Shown piece after piece: positions 34,855 to 45,032 of a DNA stretch of 64,000 nt. Every line of letters starts with the position of its first letter. The first letter of the stretch is position 1. The notes under the pieces are model-generated. The model had not been told where the DNA came from and did not search any database. It saw only the letters and a program-made list of their open reading frames with translations. Source of the DNA: Rhodobacterales bacterium (GTDB lineage: Bacteria; Pseudomonadota; Alphaproteobacteria; Rhodobacterales; Rhodobacteraceae). A program made the translations under genes and the position numbers. Location: positions 19,841 to 83,840 of the forward strand of contig PDOZ01000030.1 in NCBI GenBank assembly GCA_002747325.1, read 5' to 3'.

Positions 34855-35544
34855 TTATTGCCGCTGCACATATCCGCGCAGTTTGCCCGGGCGGGTCACG
34901 CCGTCGACCGTGATCGTCATCCCGGAATCGGTGCGGCCATTGAGGGCGATAAACTTGCCATCCTGCCCGGAAAAGGCGGTATATTCGGCCTGACCGCCGA
35001 ACTGCACCACCTTGCCGTCGTGATCCAGCCGCCCGTTGATGCTGGTGGGGAAAAACGACGCGCCTTCGTCCGGGGTGAAGTTGGAAAGCAGGGTGATCGA
35101 GCCATCAATCGGCGTGAAGCGGGCGTAAAAGTCTTCCAGCTCCTCGTCGGTGAGCTGCCCGCGCAACGCATCGCGCAGTTCCTGTTCCGTGGTTGGCGCG
35201 CCCTGAAAGTTGGTCATTTCCCCCGTCAGGGTGCCGCCATTGTCGTCGAAACGGGCGAGTATGTGCAGGTCGGCGGAGCCGGCAAACATTTTCTGGGAGG
35301 AGGGCGCGTATCGGATGCCGCCGGTGCCGGCATATTCCGCGCTGCCGGTCTTGGGCAGTTCGGTCTCTTCGATCCAGACATCGTCGAGATGCCGGCCATA
35401 GAGGTGATAGCGCTCAAACTGCCGCTCGGCGGCGTTGGCGTATTTTGACCCGCCGGATCCCCCGCTACAGCCGGTCAGCGCCAGCGCGGCCAGCCCCAGT
35501 GCCAGCGCGCTTCGGGAGAGGAGTTTCTGTTCGACGTTACGCAT
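34855..35544 (-). CDS. Lipoprotein A of a three-member paralogous set
   Basis: 229-aa lipoprotein: signal SALALGLAALALTGCSGG with lipobox LTGC near residue 26. The body has a beta-rich pattern with TGSAEYAGTGGIRY, GGTLTGEMTNFQG and a late FGGQAEYTAFSG. These blocks match, in order, those of lipoproteins B (35769) and C (44223): TGSAxYxGxG, then a G-rich turn and N-F/L-Y/Q-G. The repeated GSAxYSG and LTG-turn patterns resemble the small barrel domains of TbpB/HphA-type surface lipoproteins; that is an inference. No partner receptor gene is nearby. Confidence 0.68.
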   Translation of the reverse strand: MRNVEQKLLSRSALALGLAALALTGCSGGSGGSKYANAAERQFERYHLYGRHLDDVWIEETELPKTGSAEYAGTGGIRYAPSSQKMFAGSADLHILARFDDNGGTLTGEMTNFQGAPTTEQELRDALRGQLTDEELEDFYARFTPIDGSITLLSNFTPDEGASFFPTSINGRLDHDGKVVQFGGQAEYTAFSGQDGKFIALNGRTDSGMTITVDGVTRPGKLRGYVQRQ

Positions 35545-35768: not shown

Positions 35769-36431
35769 TCAGTCCTTTTGCAGGTAACTGCTAAATGAGC
35801 CGGTAACCGCTGCGCCGTCTTCGCTGACGGTCATGCCTCGGACGTTGCTGCCGTCGATGATGATATATTGGTGCTCGCCGCCAATAAAGTTGCTACCAGA
35901 GGCAACGCCGCCGACCTTCAGCATATGCCCGTCATAGGTCAGTTCGCCATCCAGCGCGGTGTTGAAATCTTGGGCATTCACATCAATGCCGGAAAAATCG
36001 GCATTCATGGTGATTTGCCCCTGAACGGGACGATACCCGCCATAGAATTCGGCGGCCTCAGCGGCGGGCAGGGTGCCGTTCGATGCGTGATCAAGTTCAT
36101 CTTGCATGACTTCCCGGCCGTAGAAATTGTTTGCCGCGCCGGTGAGCGTGCCGCCCGTTGCGGTGAAGGTGGCGGCCAGGTGCGTATCGGCGCTGAGATT
36201 GTGCAGCTTTCCCGCCGGATCGACATAGCTCAGTCCTCCCGCGCCGGAATAGGACGCACTGCCGCTGTTGGGCAGGTTCACCATTTCGTCCCAAACATCA
36301 TCTGCACCGGCTGCCAACCGTTCATGGGTCCGGAACTGCTGTTCGACCACTTCGCCGTAATTCGCGCCGGACATGCAGCCGGACAGGGCGAGGGCGGCGC
36401 CGATGAGAGCGGTTTGGGCAAGTGAGCGCAT
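35769..36431 (-). CDS. Lipoprotein B of a three-member paralogous set
   Basis: 220-aa lipoprotein: signal QTALIGAALALSGCMSG with lipobox LSGC near residue 20. Shares with lipoprotein A the blocks DDVWDEMVNLPNSGSASYSG and GGTLTGAANNFYG, and the C-terminal layout ending FSSYLQKD (A ends LRGYVQRQ). The start at 36431 is chosen because the signal peptide begins there and the ORF-track extension has no lipoprotein signal. 224 bp separate it from A; its 5' side faces the tracrRNA terminator. Surface exposure is inferred from the family resemblance only. Confidence 0.68.
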   Translation of the reverse strand: MRSLAQTALIGAALALSGCMSGANYGEVVEQQFRTHERLAAGADDVWDEMVNLPNSGSASYSGAGGLSYVDPAGKLHNLSADTHLAATFTATGGTLTGAANNFYGREVMQDELDHASNGTLPAAEAAEFYGGYRPVQGQITMNADFSGIDVNAQDFNTALDGELTYDGHMLKVGGVASGSNFIGGEHQYIIIDGSNVRGMTVSEDGAAVTGSFSSYLQKD

Positions 36432-36551
36432 GATGTGTTCCTTTACGCTGGGGGGCGGCTTCGGCCTCGGGGGTGTCTGCGCACGATACCAATCGGGCGG
36501 AATATGCCAAGAGAATATCTGGGTTTTTTCCGAGGAGTTTTGAGGCGTTAA

Positions 36552-36577
36552 CAAAAAACACGGGCCGTGGCCCGTGT
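36552..36577 (-). terminator. Terminator of the tracrRNA gene
   Basis: On the minus strand the stem ACACGGGCC / GGCCCGTGT is followed by TTTTT. It closes the tracrRNA transcript 120 bp before lipoprotein B and, being nearly symmetric, could also stop transcription coming from the left. Confidence 0.8.
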
Positions 36578-36631
36578 TTCAATGTGGTGCAATCGAATGC
36601 TTGTTAACGACTCGACCGCGGGTTTTGAACT
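36553..36631 (-). ncRNA. tracrRNA of the type II-C CRISPR system
   Basis: The minus strand reads ACAGTTCAAAACCCGCGG, which pairs with the crRNA repeat: 18 of 19 consecutive bases in the upper stem pair, and after an internal bulge eight more pairs form near GTTAAC. A short linker with possible small stem (GCATTCGATTGC) and a terminator hairpin with six U complete a roughly 79-nt RNA. It is transcribed divergently from cas9, 130 bp upstream of its start. The anti-repeat covers bases of about 36600-36631. It would pair with pre-crRNA for RNase III processing and load Cas9. Confidence 0.85.
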
Positions 36632-36637
36632 GTGGGC

Positions 36638-36666
36638 AATATACCGGATATTTTCCGCAAGTCGAG
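36638..36666 (-). promoter_or_regulatory. Promoter of the tracrRNA gene
   Basis: On the minus strand CTCGAC (-35-like) is followed after exactly 17 bp by TATATT (-10). The predicted start is about seven bases on, just at the first base of the anti-repeat, which is why I prefer it. Confidence 0.6.
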
Positions 36667-36764
36667 CGCGATCTTTGCGGGTGGCATCTCGCGTAAAGAT
36701 AATGTTGCGTTGGGCCGGCTGCCGGGGCAAAGTCCCGGGCAAAATGCGGCCAGGGAGGGAACGG

Positions 36765-39700
36765 ATGGGAACGCGGTTGGGGTTGGATATTGGCACGAAT
36801 TCCATCGGGTGGTGGCTTTACGCGACCGATGGCGGGGAGATTGCCGGGGTTCTGGATGGGGGCGTGCGGATTTTCTCCGATGGGCGTGATCCGAAGAGCA
36901 AGGCGTCGCTGGCGGTGGACCGGCGGATGGCGCGGGGGATGCGGCGGCGGCGGGATCGTTACCTGCGCCGCCGGGCGGCGTTGATGAAGCGGATGGCGGA
37001 TGCGGGGCTGATGCCGGCGGACCCGCAGGCGGCGAAGGCGCTGGAGCTGCTCGATCCGTATGAATTGCGTGCGCGGGGGCTGGATGAGGCGTTGCCGCTA
37101 CCGCATTTCGGCCGGGCGCTGTTTCACCTCAACCAGCGGCGCGGCTTCAAGTCCAACCGCAAGACCGACCGGGGTGACAATGAAAGCGGCAAGATCAAGG
37201 ATGCAACACGTCGACTTGATCAAGAAATGGCAGTGGCGATTAAGGATGAAAGCAAGCGTACTCTGGGGGCTTTCCTGCATATGCGCAGGCAAAAAACACC
37301 TGAGAAACCTTTAACTGAACCTAAGGAAAACAAGGATCATACTCGTAAAGACTATCGGCGCACGCCTTCGGTGCGCACACGCATGAGTGTGGCGGTGCGC
37401 GGCGGGCCGGATGCGAAGGCCGAGGAAGGCTATGATTTCTACCCCGACCGCCGCCACCTGTCGGAAGAGTTCGACAAGCTCTGGGCGGTGCAGGCCCGGT
37501 TTCACCCCGAGGTTCTGACCGACGATCTGCGCGACGAAATCCGTCTGATCATTTTCCACCAGCGCCGCCTGAAGGTGCCGAAGGTGGGGTTGTGTCTGTT
37601 CACCGAGGAAGAACGCCTGCCCGCCGCCCATCCGCTGAACCAGCGGCGTATTCTGTATGAGACCGTCAACGCTCTGCGCGTGACGGCCCCCGGCGAGGCG
37701 GTGCGCGCATTGACCCGCGAGGAGCGCGATCAGATCATTCATGCGCTCGACAACAGGAAACACACCAAGTCGCTGTCGGGCATGGCGCTGAAACTCAAGG
37801 CGTTGGGCAAGACGATCGGGCTGCGGTCGGATCAGCATTTTACTCTGGAGACCGCCAACCGCGACAGCATTGCCTGTGATCCGGTGCGCGCCAGCCTGTC
37901 GGACCCGCGCCGGTTCGGGCCGGGCTGGTCGGCGCTGGATGATAGGGAGCAATGGCGCGTTGTTCGGCGTGTTCGAAATGTACAAGGTGAGCGATGCGCA
38001 CAAGTGGTTGTCGATTGGCTGATCCGCCAGCATGGCCTGCCTCAAAGTAATGCGTGGGAGGTTCTGAATGCACCGCTGCCGGAGGGCTATGGCCGGTTGG
38101 GCCGGACCGCCACGACCCGCATTCTGGCGGCGCTGGAGGCGGAGGTGATCCCCTATAGTGCGGCGGTGGCGCGCTGCGGCTGGCACCATTCGGACGAGCG
38201 CACGGGCGAGGTGCTGACCGAACTGCCGTATTATGGCAAAATCCTTGAGCGGCATGTTATTCCCGGCACCTATGAGGAGAAGGACGACGACATTACCCGC
38301 TATGGCCGCATCACCAACCCGACGGTGCATATCGGGCTGAACCAGTTGCGCCGTCTGGTGAACCGGATCATCACGGTGCATGGCAGGCCGGACGAGATCG
38401 TGGTCGAACTGGCGCGCGATTTGAAGCGTTCGGAGGACCAGAAGCGCGAGATGCAGCGCGAGATCCGGGAGAATACCAAGGAGGCGATCCGGCGCGGCGA
38501 GAAGCTTGATGAGTTGGGCGTTCGCAATACGGGCGAGAACCGGATGGTTTTGCGGCTGTGGGAGGATCTGAACCCGGAGGATTGTCTGAAGCGCTTTTGC
38601 CCTTATTCGGGGCAGCGGATCAGCGCGTCGATGCTGTTTGACGGTTCCTGCGACGTCGATCACATCCTGCCCTATTCGCGCACGCTTGATGACAGTTTCG
38701 CCAACCGGACCCTGTGTCTGAAGGAATATAACCGGCAAAAGTCCAATAAGACGCCGTGGGAGGTCTGGGGGGAAACGGCGCAATGGGCGACGATTGAGGC
38801 CAATCTGAAGAACCTGCCAAAGAACAAGGCGTGGCGCTTTGCGCCGGACGCGATGGAGAAGTTTGAGGGCGAGCGCGATTTTGAGGCGCGGGCGCTGAAG
38901 GATACGCAATACCTGTCGCGCATCGCCCGCACCTATCTGAGCGCGCTTTATGACGGGGCGGATGGCAAATCGCATGTCTGGGTGGTGCCGGGGCGGCTGA
39001 CCGAAATGCTGCGCCGCCATTGGGGGCTGAACGCCCTGTTGTCGGAAGGCAAGGCAGCGAACAAGGCCAAGAACCGCACCGACCACCGGCATCACGCCAT
39101 TGACGCCGCGGTCATCGCCGCCACCGACCGCAGCCTGATCCAGCGGATCAGCAAGATGGCCAAGCGCGATGAGCTGGCCGGGGCGGAGGAGGTGGCGCGC
39201 GCGGTGCCGGCGCCCTGGGAGGATTTCCGCGATGACATCGCCGCCCAGCTTGCCCGCATTACCGTCAGCCACCGCGCCGATCATGGCCGCATCGACCCGC
39301 AGGCCCGCAAGTCCGGGCGGGACAGCACCAGTTGTGCGCTGCATCAGGAAACGGCCTATGGCCTGACCGGGGAAACCGATCCACGCGGGGTGCCGCTGGT
39401 CGTGACCCGCAAGCCGCTGAGCAGCCTGACCCCCGCCCTGATTGCCCGCGAGGCTCCCGGCAAAGGGGGGATGATCCGGGATGCGGAGCTGCGGCGCAGG
39501 CTGGCGGTTGCGACCAAGGGCAAAGAGGGCAAGGCTTTTGAAGCGGCCATACAGGATTTTGTCGCCAAACCGGGAGCGTATCAGGGCACGCGGCATGTGC
39601 GGGTGGTGGAACCGATTGGGGTGGCGCCGATCCATAACGGGAAGGCGAAACCGGCCAAGTCCTATGCGACTTCGGGCAACCATCGCTATGAGGTTTGGAG

Positions 39701-40091
39701 AATGCCCGACGGGAAGATCGTTGACTGGGTCGTGCCGAATTTTTACGCGCATAAAGCCGACCTGCCAACGGATGCCCGTCCGGCCACCCCGGCCACCTGC
39801 CTGCGTCCGCACCCGGCCGCGCGTCTGCTGCTGAAGCTGCAAAAGAACGATATGGTCCGGTTGCGCGATGCGTCTGGGGCGTTGGTCGTGGCGACGGTTG
39901 AAAAGTTCTCCAGCACGGGGATTATCGAAATGGTCCCCCATTCCGAGGCCAATGCCGCGGACCGTTACAGCAAGGACAAATCCGACAATGTCTACATCCG
40001 AAAAACGGCAAACACGCTGCTGAAAGCGGAGGCCCGGCGGGTCTATGTCGATGAAATGGGCCGGGTGCGCGATCCGGGGAAGGCGGGGTAG
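36765..40091 (+). CDS. cas9: Cas9 nuclease, type II-C
   Basis: RNA-guided DNA endonuclease, 1108 aa from ATG 36765 (GGGAGG five to six bases upstream); the ORF-track start at 36567 runs through the tracrRNA and is rejected. RuvC-I LGLDIGTNSIGW places Asp8; an arginine-rich bridge helix RMARGMRRRRDRYLRRRA follows. RuvC-II DEIVVELAR gives Glu548. HNH CDVDHILPYSRTLDDSFANR gives His633 with downstream NRQKSNKTP. RuvC-III HHAIDAAVIAA gives His777 and Asp780. All catalytic residues are intact. The length and lack of csn2 or cas4 indicate subtype II-C. A PAM-interacting C-terminal domain of about 230 residues follows. cas1 begins about 100 bp downstream. Confidence 0.96.
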   Translation: MGTRLGLDIGTNSIGWWLYATDGGEIAGVLDGGVRIFSDGRDPKSKASLAVDRRMARGMRRRRDRYLRRRAALMKRMADAGLMPADPQAAKALELLDPYELRARGLDEALPLPHFGRALFHLNQRRGFKSNRKTDRGDNESGKIKDATRRLDQEMAVAIKDESKRTLGAFLHMRRQKTPEKPLTEPKENKDHTRKDYRRTPSVRTRMSVAVRGGPDAKAEEGYDFYPDRRHLSEEFDKLWAVQARFHPEVLTDDLRDEIRLIIFHQRRLKVPKVGLCLFTEEERLPAAHPLNQRRILYETVNALRVTAPGEAVRALTREERDQIIHALDNRKHTKSLSGMALKLKALGKTIGLRSDQHFTLETANRDSIACDPVRASLSDPRRFGPGWSALDDREQWRVVRRVRNVQGERCAQVVVDWLIRQHGLPQSNAWEVLNAPLPEGYGRLGRTATTRILAALEAEVIPYSAAVARCGWHHSDERTGEVLTELPYYGKILERHVIPGTYEEKDDDITRYGRITNPTVHIGLNQLRRLVNRIITVHGRPDEIVVELARDLKRSEDQKREMQREIRENTKEAIRRGEKLDELGVRNTGENRMVLRLWEDLNPEDCLKRFCPYSGQRISASMLFDGSCDVDHILPYSRTLDDSFANRTLCLKEYNRQKSNKTPWEVWGETAQWATIEANLKNLPKNKAWRFAPDAMEKFEGERDFEARALKDTQYLSRIARTYLSALYDGADGKSHVWVVPGRLTEMLRRHWGLNALLSEGKAANKAKNRTDHRHHAIDAAVIAATDRSLIQRISKMAKRDELAGAEEVARAVPAPWEDFRDDIAAQLARITVSHRADHGRIDPQARKSGRDSTSCALHQETAYGLTGETDPRGVPLVVTRKPLSSLTPALIAREAPGKGGMIRDAELRRRLAVATKGKEGKAFEAAIQDFVAKPGAYQGTRHVRVVEPIGVAPIHNGKAKPAKSYATSGNHRYEVWRMPDGKIVDWVVPNFYAHKADLPTDARPATPATCLRPHPAARLLLKLQKNDMVRLRDASGALVVATVEKFSSTGIIEMVPHSEANAADRYSKDKSDNVYIRKTANTLLKAEARRVYVDEMGRVRDPGKAG

Positions 40092-40192
40092 GGCGCGGCT
40101 TTCCTTCCTGAAACCAGCCCGATTTGGGGAAATGCCTTGCGCGTATTACACTCGCACCGGGAGGGGTGATTCGCCTTGGGCGCGAGGGTTTG

Positions 40193-41107
40193 GTGTTGGA
40201 TCAGATCATTGATATCGCCACGGATGGACGGCATCTGTCCCGGCAACGCGGCTTCCTGATTGTCTCCGAAGAGGGGCATGAAATCGGACGCACGCCGCTT
40301 GATCAGGTGGCGGCGGTGATTGTGCATGCGCATGGCACGACCTGGTCGACCTCGCTGCTGGTGGAACTGGCGGAACGCGGCGCGCCGGTGGTGTTGTGCG
40401 CCGCCAACCACGCCCCCCGCTCGGTGCTGATGCCGCTGGAAGGGCACCACTTGCAGGGCGCCCGGATGCGCGCCCAGTGGCAGGCGAAAACACCGCTGAT
40501 CAAACAGGCGTGGAAGCAGGTTGTAGCGGCCAAACTGCGGATGCAGGCGGCGGCGCTGGAGGCGGTCGGGGAAGCGCCCGCGCCGGTGCGCATGATGATC
40601 CGCAAGATCACCTCGGGCGACAGCACCAACATGGAGGCCCAGGCCGCGCGCTACTACTGGCCTCGCCTGATGGGGGAAACCTTTCGGCGCGATGCGACCG
40701 CCGGGGATGAAAACGCCCTGCTCAATTACGGCTATACCGTCCTGCGCGCCGCGACCGCGCGGGCGGTGGTCGCCGCCGGTCTGCACCCGACCATCGGCCT
40801 GTTTCATGCCCATCGCGGCAATGCTTTCGCGCTGGCCGATGACCTGATGGAGCCGTTCCGTCCGCTGGTCGACCTGAGCGTGCGCCATATCGCAGCGACC
40901 CGCGGGGCGGCGGTTGACCCGGAGGCGAAACAGGCGCTGGCCGGGCTGATCGCCACCGATCTGCCGCTGGGCGACGGCGTCACGCCGGTTTCGGTGGCAC
41001 TGATGAAACTGGCCACCTCGCTGGGTCAGAGCTTCGAGACCGGCAAACTTGCCCTCGCGCTGCCCGACCCGCCCGATCCGCTGGCGCTTGCGGGGCTGGG
41101 CCAATGA
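40193..41107 (+). CDS. cas1: Cas1 spacer-integration nuclease
   Basis: Type II Cas1 integrase, about 304 aa. Metal-site residues: Glu in SGDSTNMEAQAARYYWPRL, His in TIGLFHAHRGNAFALADDLMEPFRP and the following Asp-containing segment. Type II Cas1 proteins start close to the IIDIATDGRHLSRQRGFLIV strand, so I place the start at GTG 40193 (GAGGG four bases upstream) or TTG 40196; the ORF-track ATG at 40124 would add 23 residues with no support. It overlaps cas2 by four bases (ATGA). It would form a Cas1-Cas2 complex and, with Cas9 and tracrRNA, select PAM-bearing spacers. Confidence 0.92.
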   Translation: MLDQIIDIATDGRHLSRQRGFLIVSEEGHEIGRTPLDQVAAVIVHAHGTTWSTSLLVELAERGAPVVLCAANHAPRSVLMPLEGHHLQGARMRAQWQAKTPLIKQAWKQVVAAKLRMQAAALEAVGEAPAPVRMMIRKITSGDSTNMEAQAARYYWPRLMGETFRRDATAGDENALLNYGYTVLRAATARAVVAAGLHPTIGLFHAHRGNAFALADDLMEPFRPLVDLSVRHIAATRGAAVDPEAKQALAGLIATDLPLGDGVTPVSVALMKLATSLGQSFETGKLALALPDPPDPLALAGLGQ

Positions 41108-41448
41108 ATGTGCCGGTGACAAAATTATCGGGGTATCGTCTGATGTGGATTTTGGTGATGTTCGACCTGCCGACGGATACGAAAAAACAGCGCAAGGATG
41201 CGGGCACGTTTCGCAATTTCCTGCTCGACGAGGGCTTTGAGCGCAGCCAGTTTTCGGTCTATGCCCGCTTCGTCAACGGCAAGGAGGCCTTTGCAACCCG
41301 CGTTAACCGTATTGAGCGTAACCTACCCGCCGCAGGCGACGTGCAAATCCTCAACTTCACTGACCGGCAATATCGTGATATTGTGCATTTCTCGGATCAG
41401 GGTCGGCGCAAGGCGCGGGAAAATCCGAAACAACTGGTGCTTTTCTAA
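41104..41448 (+). CDS. cas2: Cas2 spacer-integration subunit
   Basis: 114-aa type II Cas2. The ferredoxin-like fold begins with LMWILVMFDLPTDTKKQRK, carrying the conserved Asp; the later ERSQFSVYARFVNGKEA and VQILNFTDRQYRDIV blocks match the family. ATG overlaps the cas1 stop. It is the last cas gene, 73 bp from the first CRISPR repeat; there is no csn2 or cas4. Confidence 0.92.
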   Translation: MNVPVTKLSGYRLMWILVMFDLPTDTKKQRKDAGTFRNFLLDEGFERSQFSVYARFVNGKEAFATRVNRIERNLPAAGDVQILNFTDRQYRDIVHFSDQGRRKARENPKQLVLF

Positions 41449-41467
41449 GGTGATTCGCGATGGAATT

Positions 41468-41528
41468 TTACAATAGACCCCGGCTAGTTCCTTGTATTTT
41501 CAAGGTGTTAGCGCGGGATCTATTGTAA
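41468..41528 (-). terminator. Long imperfect hairpin at the cas2-side end of the array
   Basis: TTACAATAGA on the left and TCTATTGTAA on the right form a perfect 10-bp stem that continues with CCCG, CTA and CCTTG pairs (bulges between) around a TATTTT loop. The right arm includes the first bases of repeat 1. Since the array reads on the minus strand, this structure lies just after the last repeat and may end pre-crRNA transcription or be a decayed repeat; it also lies 20 bp beyond cas2. Confidence 0.5.
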
Positions 41529-41688
41529 CAGTTCAAAACCCGAGGTCCAGCCGCAACAACCTAGGGGGCGCTAACGCACCCCCGACATTGTAACAGTTCA
41601 AAACCCGAGGTCCAGCCGCAACTCCCGGCGCATGGTGCTAAAAGCAAAGTCAATTGTAACAGTTCAAAACCCGAGGTCCAGCCGCAAC
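41522..41688 (-). CRISPR. Type II-C CRISPR array: 3 repeats, 2 spacers
   Basis: Three identical 36-bp repeats at 41522-41557, 41587-41622 and 41653-41688, with spacers of 29 bp (41558-41586) and 30 bp (41623-41652). In crRNA orientation (minus strand) the repeat starts GTTGCGGCTGGACCTCGG and ends GAACTGTTACAAT, the usual II-C form. The ending TGTTACAAT is an extended -10 motif, as in Neisseria II-C repeats where each repeat carries a promoter. The array therefore reads towards cas2, and new spacers should enter at the 41688 side. No leader resembling a conserved element is seen there; phage-like DNA follows instead. Confidence 0.95.
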
Positions 41689-41774
41689 CGGCCGAGGAGC
41701 GCGCAGTTTAGCGCGCTGATCCGGCGACTGTTCGTCGTAAAATGGAAGCGGCGGGTTTTTCATCCACTTAACGT

Positions 41775-42505
41775 AACAAGTGTTGGCGCGCCGGTGGGTA
41801 TAGTTCCAGTTCTGTCTTCGGGGCCTGCCCCAGCGGCGACTGGTCTTGTTGCATCTGTTGATTATTCGCCGATTGGCTCTGTTTTGCAGCAAAATTTCGC
41901 CTCTGCTTTGGATCAGTTTGTCGAGCTTCAGGCCCTCGATTTTCAGCGTTCGAAGCTTCAGAGGCGTAATCAGAAGTTGACTGAGGCGCTTGCGCGTGAA
42001 ACTTTGAACCCATCAGTTGCGGGGATTTATGGTGATGGTTCGTCTGCTGGTGGTTCTGATCCTTCTGTGTCTTTTGGCAGCGGTCGCGGCAAACGCTTAG
42101 TTCGCGGGGTTGACGGTCGTTCGGTTATTGTTTCTGATGCCGAACCTATGCCGCTTTTTTGCGGAATATCTTGATATGTCTGGTAATGTTTATTACGGCG
42201 TTAACCCTAATGTCCCGGATGCTAAATAGTTAGTTTCTCCTGCGAGTATCGAGTTGGTTGATACGTTATCTGGTGATCCTAAAGTTGGTGGTAATTTCGT
42301 TGGCAATTCTCTTCGGTATATTGCCAAGGGTGGCGTGGTGGGTCAGGCATATCGTTATTTGACAGATACGTCATTTGATCCTCCTCCTTCTCAGTTTTAT
42401 TCTCCTCCACCTCTTCCGTTGCTTCCGTCAACTCGTCTTAATCCTTATGGCGTGATCAAGTTCGGTCCTTCGACGCTTGACCAATATGTAGGTCTGCGTA
42501 AATAA
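41775..42505 (+). pseudogene. Decayed Microviridae pilot-protein (VP2-like) gene
   Basis: Three reading pieces join into one protein-like sequence. Frame 1 (to 42174) has SVGAPVGIVPVLSSGPAPA and an Ala/Gln/Leu-rich helix LDQFVELQALDFQRSKLQRR, then GRGKRLVRGVDGRSVIVSD. At a run of six T (42155-42160) removal of one T would shift into the frame reading FAEYLDMSGNVYYGVNPNV; that frame then meets an in-frame TAG (about 42227) and continues to 42505 with GNFVGNSLRYIAKGG and a Pro-rich tail. T-rich third codon positions differ sharply from the GC-rich host. The composition and position before a capsid-like gene fit the DNA pilot protein of ssDNA microviruses; the homology is from memory, untested. 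Confidence 0.5.
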
Positions 42506-42541
42506 TCCAGCAAAATCAATAACCTAAAGAAGAGTCTTAAT

Positions 42542-42958
42542 ATGAGTCTGTCTCGTTTCCAGCAGCCGCGTTCGCGGCGTCATGAAAACCGACATATTGT
42601 CGGCAAGTTTCGCGGTGGTAAGTTGCAGCCGGTGCATATGCTTCCGGTGCGTGGCTCTGAGAGTGGTTTTGTCACCAATCAGATTGCGTTCAAGGTGGAC
42701 CCGCTTGCGGGCCAGCTTATGAGTCCGGCATTTAAGAATCCTGACGCGGATTATAGCGGCTCTGCCGATGTTGTTCGTGCGAAGCTCGAAACTGGCGCGC
42801 CGCTGTTTGATCTTGAGCCGGAAAACTTGATCAGCAAGTTGTGTCGCATCAATCCGCGCCGCATTGATGGCCGGAAGTATGCTAGTGAGATGGTCCGTCT
42901 TGCACATAACTGCGCGGTCAATCACTTGCGCCGCGCCAAGTATGTAAACGCGGGGTAA
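42542..42958 (+). pseudogene. Truncated Microviridae major capsid protein (VP1-like)
   Basis: 138-aa ORF with AAGAAGAG ribosome site at good spacing. The N-terminus reads like microvirus capsids (RSRRHENRHIVGKFRGGKLQPVHMLPV, then FKVDPLAGQLMSP). The part NPDADYSGSADVVRAKLETG, EPENLISKLCRINPRRIDG and MVRLAHNCAVNHLRRAKYV resembles capsids of alphaproteobacterial microviruses as I remember them. Normal capsid proteins exceed 500 aa; here the ORF stops after VNAG, and a stretch between LMSPAF and KNPDADY seems missing. So it looks like an internally deleted, 3'-truncated relic. Short expressed fragment functions cannot be excluded. Confidence 0.55.
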
Positions 42959-43019
42959 GATTTTAACACTACAAAACCCAACGTTCAGGCACAGCAATGA
43001 AGGTGAACAGGAAGGGGCC

Positions 43020-43841
43020 TTACTTGAATATGGCTATAAGCACTAATGCAATCAGTAGTCCAAGTATCGAGTGCCTGCTACGCCAGAGGTATGATCGCTG
43101 GATTCTCCTCTCCCAATCTATCGCTGGTGGCGTTTTGATTGTGATTTCTGACAGCCTCGCGGGTTCGATCGCTCCTGCGGGCATACCGACATCGATTGAG
43201 TCTGGGTAAGCCTTGAACGCTTCGGTGAATATGGTTGCGGTTCCCTTCAAGGGGAGGGTCGGGAATTTTCCGATATGGTCAAAAAGCGAGTTAAACTCAT
43301 GCTTGCCAAGGAGCAGGAAGGCGCTTGTCCCATCCCAATCTGCAAAAAATCGGCCCGACTCCCCAGCTAATACGCCATCCTCGGGAAGCCCTGTCGGGTC
43401 TAAACATGCGAATTCCAAGTTTAACGTAGACAGTTGATACTTCCCGCCAATGGGTAAGTTCTCATGGTTTGGAAAAATGTCGACATTACATCGGGTGATG
43501 GTTTCATAATTAGGGAGTTCTTTATTTTCTTTCGCATTAGAGAACACCTTTATCGAATGTGGACTCATGAGGTTTGCGTCGAAGAAACCGCCAGTAGCGT
43601 GAATAGATCGGGTTATTCCGCTTGCTCCGGGGGTGTTGTCGTTCCAGTCGATATTCTCTCTGTCGCTCAAAGATATTCGATTATTTTCTGAATCCCAGCT
43701 CACGCGGCAGCCTAACCGGATGTTTTCAAGGCTAAGAATAATTTGCTGCGGCATCTTGCTAATCTCTTCACCCGTTTCCGTATCTTTGAAGAGACGGTCC
43801 GATATTTTTTCCCATTTGGGAGCGTTTTTGAAAATGGTCAT
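43020..43841 (-). CDS. Tail-anchored protein of unknown function
   Basis: 273-aa protein that I do not recognise. It has no signal peptide and is soluble up to about residue 250; the end (YLWRSRHSILGLLIALVLIAIFK) is a single hydrophobic helix preceded by basic residues, the layout of a C-terminal tail anchor with the body in the cytoplasm. Base composition is clearly more AT-rich than the core genome. It lies between the phage relic and lipoprotein C, oriented towards the CRISPR array. A role in defence or phage biology is suggested by position only. The start at 43841 (MTIFKNAPKW) is followed upstream by GAGGAAT on the minus strand. Confidence 0.6.
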   Translation of the reverse strand: MTIFKNAPKWEKISDRLFKDTETGEEISKMPQQIILSLENIRLGCRVSWDSENNRISLSDRENIDWNDNTPGASGITRSIHATGGFFDANLMSPHSIKVFSNAKENKELPNYETITRCNVDIFPNHENLPIGGKYQLSTLNLEFACLDPTGLPEDGVLAGESGRFFADWDGTSAFLLLGKHEFNSLFDHIGKFPTLPLKGTATIFTEAFKAYPDSIDVGMPAGAIEPARLSEITIKTPPAIDWERRIQRSYLWRSRHSILGLLIALVLIAIFK

Positions 43842-44222
43842 AAATTCCTCGCATCACGGTGATGGGTGGATAGGAGCAAAAAAAGCACCAATAAACAACA
43901 GAGGGCGTGAAATGTATGAAAACAAATGACATTTGAGAAAGTGTTGAAAACAGTGCGTGACGTCGGGGGGGCAACGCGGTGGCGGTTGTCTTTTGGCTAT
44001 AAGCCTTTGATTTTACGCCGATGCTTCGTGGATTTTGAGATCAAAATCCACTCCCGTCAGCTATACCCAGCCAATGCGGGCCAGCTTGTGAGGGAACATC
44101 CTCATGCTACCGGGCGCGCCAGCCAAAACACCCCATCACAAGCCGACGGATTCCGAAAGATAAACGACCCATGGACAGGCTCTTGCAGAGCGTCTGATCC
44201 CACGGCGCAGAACGGCGTCGGG
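43842..44222. other. Gene-free stretch between accessory genes
   Basis: 381 bp without a convincing gene. It contains an 18-bp palindrome (GATTTTGAGATCAAAATC, about 44034-44051). The ORF in the track that starts at 43926 crosses into lipoprotein C and has no coding character. No tRNA could be folded here. Confidence 0.5.
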
Positions 44223-44975
44223 TTATTGCTTTTCGCCGATCGCGCTAAGGTAGACGTAGCGCTGCACGACCCCGTTGCGGGTTATGACGAAGGGCTCAGC
44301 GCTATCGTCGCTCGAGGACCGGAGTGTGATATTTGCGTCATCTTCTGTCGCCGCAAATCCGCCGCTGAGACTGCCGCCGACAACCACATTGTTATCCCCG
44401 TCCAGTAATTTTCCATCAATGGAAAGGCCCGTAAAATAAGGGTAATCCGTCGATAGTCTCTTGAGTCGGAAGTGCGGGCTGTCGCTGCTGATCCGCAAAG
44501 TGCCATCGACTTCCCGGTTAAACTTTCTGATCAGTTGCACCCGCTCTTCATCGGTCATGTCGGCGTAGTCATAGACGGACCACAGGGGCGCGTTCTCCTC
44601 CATGGTCAGGCCAATGGCGGAGTAGAGATTGTCGATCTTGCCGTGGATCGCAGTATCGTAGCCATCGAAGTCGACTTCGAGGTTCATGTCTCCGATCATC
44701 GTGACGTCCCGGAAATACTGCCACTTCGGGGAGTCATACGCCACCACGGCGCTGCCGGAATAGGTTGCGGACCCGCTTGTTGGCAGGGGACCGTCTATGA
44801 GATCCCCAGATATCACCTCGTTTCGGGCCACCAAATTATGCCCGCGCTGGTCGAGAAGGGTTTCGGCCGAAAGTGGGTGCGGTGTCCCGCCCGCGCCGCC
44901 GCCGCCACCACCCGGCGTTCCACCGGCGCACCCGGCCAGAATGAAGGCTGCAATTACCAGGCTGATCCGTTTCAT
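44223..44975 (-). CDS. Lipoprotein C of a three-member paralogous set
   Basis: 250-aa lipoprotein: signal KRISLVIAAFILAGCAGG with lipobox LAGC near residue 16, then a Gly-rich linker (TPGGGGGGAGGTP). The body shows the same order of blocks as lipoproteins A and B: LPTSGSATYSGSAVVAYDSP, then an acidic MNLEVDFDGYDTAIHGKIDNLYS, and a C-terminal VVGGSLSGGFAA followed by RNGVVQRYVYLS. It is more diverged than A and B are from each other. The start at 44975 (MKRISLV) fits the signal peptide better than the ORF-track Met. It lies downstream of the RACo-like gene by only 57 bp but probably has its own promoter. Confidence 0.65.
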   Translation of the reverse strand: MKRISLVIAAFILAGCAGGTPGGGGGGAGGTPHPLSAETLLDQRGHNLVARNEVISGDLIDGPLPTSGSATYSGSAVVAYDSPKWQYFRDVTMIGDMNLEVDFDGYDTAIHGKIDNLYSAIGLTMEENAPLWSVYDYADMTDEERVQLIRKFNREVDGTLRISSDSPHFRLKRLSTDYPYFTGLSIDGKLLDGDNNVVVGGSLSGGFAATEDDANITLRSSSDDSAEPFVITRNGVVQRYVYLSAIGEKQ

Positions 44976-45032
44976 CTTTACACTCCCAGAGTTGGGCATT
45001 TAAAGGATAATCTACTGAACTCAGGGAAAATT

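Follow-up and report, generated by a model that had tools for sequence, protein, structure and literature searches.

A complete compact type II-C CRISPR-Cas locus from a Rhodobacterales bacterium with a decayed microvirus fragment between its array repeats

Within the 64,000-nucleotide stretch of Rhodobacterales DNA analyzed here (the window), positions 36550–41688 hold a complete CRISPR-Cas locus with a tracrRNA, cas9, cas1, cas2, and three perfect 36-nt repeats that read GTTGCGGCTGGACCTCGGGTTTTGAACTGTTACAAT in the crRNA sense (minus strand). The cas9, cas1, and cas2 genes occupy 36765–41448, and no extra gene stands ahead of the array. An earlier note on this DNA had described a complete compact type II-C locus ending at 41688. 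The intact cas genes, the tracrRNA, and the repeats bear out the description of the locus; its right-hand limit has to be moved, as a degenerate fourth repeat closes the array further on. The features are as follows.

36550–36633, minus strand: tracrRNA (anti-repeat, conserved middle, terminal hairpin), recognized by pairing, fold, conservation, and covariation
36765–40091, plus strand: cas9, 1108 aa, II-C size class (TIGR01865, HNH_4, RuvC_III, catalytic residues)
40196–41107, plus strand: cas1 (TIGR03639, type II Cas1 family, 225.6 bits)
41104–41448, plus strand: cas2 (TIGR01573, 69 bits; CRISPR_Cas2)
41449–41521: leader, from the cas2 stop to repeat 1, near-constant in length in relatives, with GATTCG conserved after the cas2 stop
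41474–41521, minus strand: leader hairpin adjoining repeat 1, 48 nt, on the array-transcript strand, conserved and covarying
41522–41557, minus strand: repeat 1, 36 nt, with −35 TGGACC and −10 TACAAT matches
41558–41586, minus strand: spacer 1, 29 nt, the newest
41587–41622, minus strand: repeat 2, identical to repeats 1 and 3, promoter match
41623–41652, minus strand: spacer 2, 30 nt
41653–41688, minus strand: repeat 3, identical to repeats 1 and 2, promoter match
41689–42959, plus strand: insert of decayed microvirus DNA, 1271 nt between repeats 3 and 4, recognized by GC content and VP1/VP2 homology
42542–42958, plus strand: N-terminal fragment of VP1 (major capsid protein) with a 16-aa internal deletion
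42960–42995, minus strand: repeat 4, degenerate and terminal, 27/36 matches, promoter decayed

In a family profile search, Cas9 matches TIGR01865 over its whole length (539 bits), and HNH_4 and RuvC_III score above their cut-offs. The protein combines RuvC I–III and HNH with the length of about 1000–1100 aa typical of a type II-C Cas9, and D8, E548, H633, N656, H776, and D780 are all present, which confirms the small size class and intact catalytic residues reported earlier. The closest Cas9 is ~70% identical, and Rhodobacterales relatives range from 57 to 70%. Phylogenetic placement, a check that the earlier note had proposed, groups the protein weakly (81/94) with Yoonia vestfoldensis and one further genome (G007), inside the Rhodobacterales II-C clade and on a fairly long branch (0.38). 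By this comparison, the locus is a new member of that common clade. The same assembly carries a second type II-C locus on contig 26 (L034, 7319 bp), with a tracrRNA, cas9, cas1, and cas2 and with transposase genes immediately upstream. Its cas9 is broken between residues 146 and 194 by a deletion and a frameshift, its array of at least five repeats runs off the contig, and its repeat differs from that of the main locus at 9 of 36 positions.

The tracrRNA carries the anti-repeat that a II-C system calls for. This segment (36608–36633) pairs with the array repeat; a hairpin with a fold z of −4.1 comes next on the minus strand. Anti-repeat, conserved middle, and terminal hairpin recur in 24 of 25 related loci, and the anti-repeat pairs better with the repeat of its own array than with those of other arrays (22.1 versus 20.0 of 26 positions). 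Seven of the eight pairs in the terminal hairpin covary, which none of 500 shuffles equals. Rfam returned no convincing family match. The locus thereby adds a compact, clean II-C Cas9 whose tracrRNA is defined by comparison.

Inspection of cas1, cas2, and the leader of this locus revealed no lesion. The cas1 gene probably starts at the TTG at 40196, matching its relatives: alignments of the latter begin at residues 16–25 of the longer cas1 open reading frame in most loci. Another in-frame TTG lies upstream, at 40124.

Repeats 1–3 each contain TGGACC and TACAAT, 16 nt apart, on the minus strand. These consensus matches represent candidate repeat-embedded promoters of the kind that characterizes II-C arrays, in keeping with the earlier statement that promoter elements can be read from the sequence. 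The earlier note had also suggested deriving the PAM from protospacer matches. This check was run and yielded no protospacer: a search of INPHARED with both spacers of the locus and 131 spacers of the clade gave no significant hit, and exact matching of 20–22-nt cores of the two spacers against IMG/VR gave none. Elsewhere in the survey described below, spacers 6 and 8 of the L101 array differ by a single base (CATCTGTTACAATATTG.. and CATCTGTTACATTATTG..), which suggests that one was duplicated from the other or that both were captured from related targets.

Comparison with relatives reveals the polarity of the array. Wherever the array of a related locus could be read, the first repeat nearly always lies 73–76 nt from cas2 and the interval is conserved in sequence, while the cas-distal flanks have nothing in common and contain degenerate repeats. 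Because of the near-constant cas2-repeat spacing and the degenerate cas-distal repeats in relatives, we place the leader, which is intact, on the cas2 side, and hence no phage DNA stands at the acquisition end. Judged in this way, the array polarity assumed earlier was backwards, and the phage-like DNA said to occupy the leader side lies instead between repeats 3 and 4. The correction replaces “acquisition blocked” with “acquisition end intact”. The candidate promoters in the repeats of this locus read the minus strand, and II-C arrays are known to acquire at their 3′ end, beside cas2 (PMC6008519; PMC12638026).

The part of the leader that adjoins repeat 1 folds into a hairpin with a z of −6.3 here and of −4.8 to −8.1 in the seven relatives tested. 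Across 26 leaders, double changes occur at 17 of 20 pairs, and the covariation score of 0.51 (versus 0.23 in shuffles) is reached by none of 500 shuffles. G-U pairs outnumber A-C mismatches by 75 to 33 when the minus strand is read, and this strand gives the better fold in 23 of the 26 leaders; these observations indicate that the structure acts as an RNA, on the array strand. Distant alphaproteobacterial II-C loci often have a hairpin and a T run at the same place, the standard form of a terminator. With orientation set by a simple rule that is likely wrong for at least one locus, the leader-side z falls below −3 in 24 of 40 distant loci versus 7 trailer flanks. We infer that the leader hairpin is probably the terminator of the array, ending the transcript ahead of an antisense run into cas2. 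A literature search of partial coverage found no description of a II-C leader hairpin. The covarying structure offers a checkable model of where transcription stops in alphaproteobacterial II-C arrays, and it aids in orienting them.

These features suggest how the system may work. The array would be transcribed leftwards from promoters within each repeat, and the transcript would stop at the leader hairpin. The repeats of the crRNAs would then pair with the tracrRNA, which is encoded upstream of cas9 on the strand opposite to the cas genes, and Cas9 would cut matching DNA. New spacers would enter between cas2 and repeat 1 through the action of Cas1-Cas2. The decayed microvirus fragment, 1.24–1.27 kb long, occupies the oldest array unit, from repeat 3 to repeat 4, and leaves the leader untouched.

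Repeat 4 matches the array repeat better than the best of 24 million simulated positions (25/36), and we reject a chance match on these grounds. It carries TAACA and AAAACCC states that are common to its own array and absent from the repeats of relatives; a consensus scan found no promoter match in it. Since repeat 4 comes right after the phage DNA, the phage piece falls within the array and forms part of its oldest unit. The phage match spans from ~41718 (VP2) to ~42957 (about residue 150 of VP1). The 138-aa VP1 fragment is recognizable as Microviridae VP1, with E values of 3e-36 and 2e-38 to two phages, and is 44–49% identical to Ebor, Ascunsovirus, and Rhodobacteraceae proviruses. The VP2 fragment (best E 6e-11) contains a frameshift and an in-frame stop. 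The GC content of the insert is 0.507 versus 0.63 in the cas genes. Neither a VP4 replication initiator nor a complete Microviridae genome was found; with VP2-VP1 only, the insert is classed by homology as a decayed Microviridae fragment. For the first 29 nt past repeat 3 no phage match is proven, and an ordinary spacer could account for them. We found no second copy of the insert in the genome and no closer microvirus relative above 50% identity in IMG/VR. A transposon or IS element was also considered and rejected, as the open reading frames of the insert match no Pfam or PHROGs transposase; no inverted repeats link the two insert edges among the 25 longest pairs listed. Of 396 other genomes in the same family, 5 carry microvirus capsid genes of this group (L038, L039, L041–L043), and the capsid copy in genome G369 (L044) is likewise broken.

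To the right of repeat 4, at 42996–45000, the GC content falls to 0.52 versus 0.63 for the window, and this segment is possibly foreign DNA. It includes a minus-strand open reading frame of 273 aa (43020–43841) with no family match. One lipoprotein family occurs on both sides of the CRISPR locus, on the minus strand, at 34855–35544, 35769–36554, and 44223–44999. The first two members are 36% identical and the third is weakly related (E 2e-5); they match FHBP_C weakly.

We surveyed ~65 distinct alphaproteobacterial II-C arrays with ~1,200 spacers (75 arrays and 1260 spacers in the raw count, in which a few loci are listed twice) and found four repeat-bounded long inserts. Besides the insert described here, these are two in genome G208 (L101; 512 and 552 nt) and one in genome G818 (L113; 333 nt), and all adjoin degenerate trailer-end repeats. 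The 512-nt insert encodes part of a beta protein like that of phage P4, namely its C-terminal half, in a reading frame that reaches the repeat edge, and is 67% identical to an IMG/VR contig. The 552-nt insert contains short open frames without a known family, and the 333-nt insert has a weak LPD3 match only (E 0.037). Sequence similarity makes a phage origin firm for two of the four, the insert of this locus and the 512-nt piece, and only suggests it for the other two. Two candidates were set aside: the gap in L122 is an IS256-type element within a repeat, and the long gaps in L003 are assembly N runs and were excluded from the count. In the literature that our partial search covered, nothing to the point on oversized spacers was found.

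Plain illegitimate insertion into the trailer spacer is the sober default for how the phage piece arrived. We see a roughly even chance that such an insertion, or a remnant of a larger microvirus provirus in the trailer-end spacer, decayed in place, its bounding by repeats having no mechanism behind it. The phage match begins one spacer length (29 nt) past repeat 3, as fits an intact spacer plus an insert, and the insert is decayed. Spacers make up ~45% of array length, so random insertions into them should not be rare, and the IS256-type element in a repeat of another array demonstrates that arrays do accept insertions. Less easily explained in this way are the end of the phage match ~3 nt from repeat 4 and the presence in three arrays, always by degenerate terminal repeats, of inter-repeat coding pieces that resemble phages or mobile elements; nor were an integrase, att sites, or inverted ends noticed. 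We reject a single crossover between a spacer and a circular microvirus, as the edges lie 1.2 kb apart in the phage and ≤30 nt would be expected. The draft state of the genome raises the question of assembly chimeras at the repeat-phage junctions, as misjoins are common at repeats. We regard this as highly improbable: repeat 4 has diverged yet has derived bases in common with the array, the phage part, in contrast to a live phage, carries mutations, the genome holds no second copy, and similar inserts occur in two other assemblies.

The bounding of all four inserts by repeats would be expected if Cas1-Cas2 had integrated kilobase phage DNA as an oversized spacer, with the repeat copied on both sides, and the P4-like piece, with its IMG/VR match and its frame running to the repeat edge, also fits. 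Cas1-Cas2, however, acts as a ruler of ~30 bp. Moreover, the right junction of the 512-nt insert in G208 seems to fall within repeat 10, a phage origin is unproven for the left 29 nt of the present insert, and only four such inserts occur per ~1,200 spacers; we consider this route unlikely but credible. It is doubtful that the adaptation machinery of the II-C lineage occasionally captures 0.3–1.3 kb of phage DNA as oversized spacers, so that entire gene fragments come to lie between repeats. A stretch of phage DNA that fills the whole gap between adjacent repeats would also result if two adjacent spacers from the same phage had recombined with phage DNA, so that phage sequence replaced the intervening repeat. 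This strikes us as quite improbable, as it needs two spacers in the same orientation and crossovers in 30-nt homologies, and the insert is matched by neither of the two spacers that remain. With foreign pieces bounded by repeats in three arrays, it becomes testable whether Cas1-Cas2 or spacer recombination can insert kilobases of phage DNA.

Taken together, the II-C system is ordinary and well preserved, and its array bears an unusual phage scar of testable origin. The gene, RNA, and repeat features argue strongly that the locus is complete and probably functional. Counting against this are the draft source genome (78% complete, 46 contigs), the long Cas9 branch, which could reflect relaxed constraint, and the array itself, where only two ordinary spacers remain, neither with a significant INPHARED protospacer or an exact IMG/VR core match. 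The small number of spacers, together with the broken second II-C cas9 of the same genome, would also fit a dead locus that the phage insertion has shut down. With all genes open, the tracrRNA, repeats 1–3, and leader intact, and the insert at the trailer end, we think that very unlikely.

Among known systems, the Rhodobacterales II-C loci of Yoonia vestfoldensis (L003) and Paracoccus (L005, L006, L009) have the same gene order, repeat length and ends, leader spacing, and tracrRNA. The present locus differs in its shorter array and the phage fragment in its trailer, and its Cas9 is ~24 aa longer than those of close relatives around residues 150–190. In the II-C system of Riemerella anatipestifer, acquisition between cas2 and the first repeat was established by experiment (PMC6008519); comparison points to the same leader and acquisition position here, although the repeats are 47 nt long there and 36 nt here. 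The IS256-type element of L122 is likewise foreign DNA interrupting an array, but it bears a transposase and lies inside a repeat, whereas the microvirus piece is without a transposase and lies between repeats. The phage DNA itself has the VP2-VP1 order of Rhodobacter phage Ebor and Ascunsovirus oldenburgi, with VP1 44–46% identical. Ebor, assigned to the ‘Tainavirinae’, exists as a complete phage and integrates at dif (PMC11980548), in contrast to the decayed 1.2-kb fragment within a CRISPR array described here.
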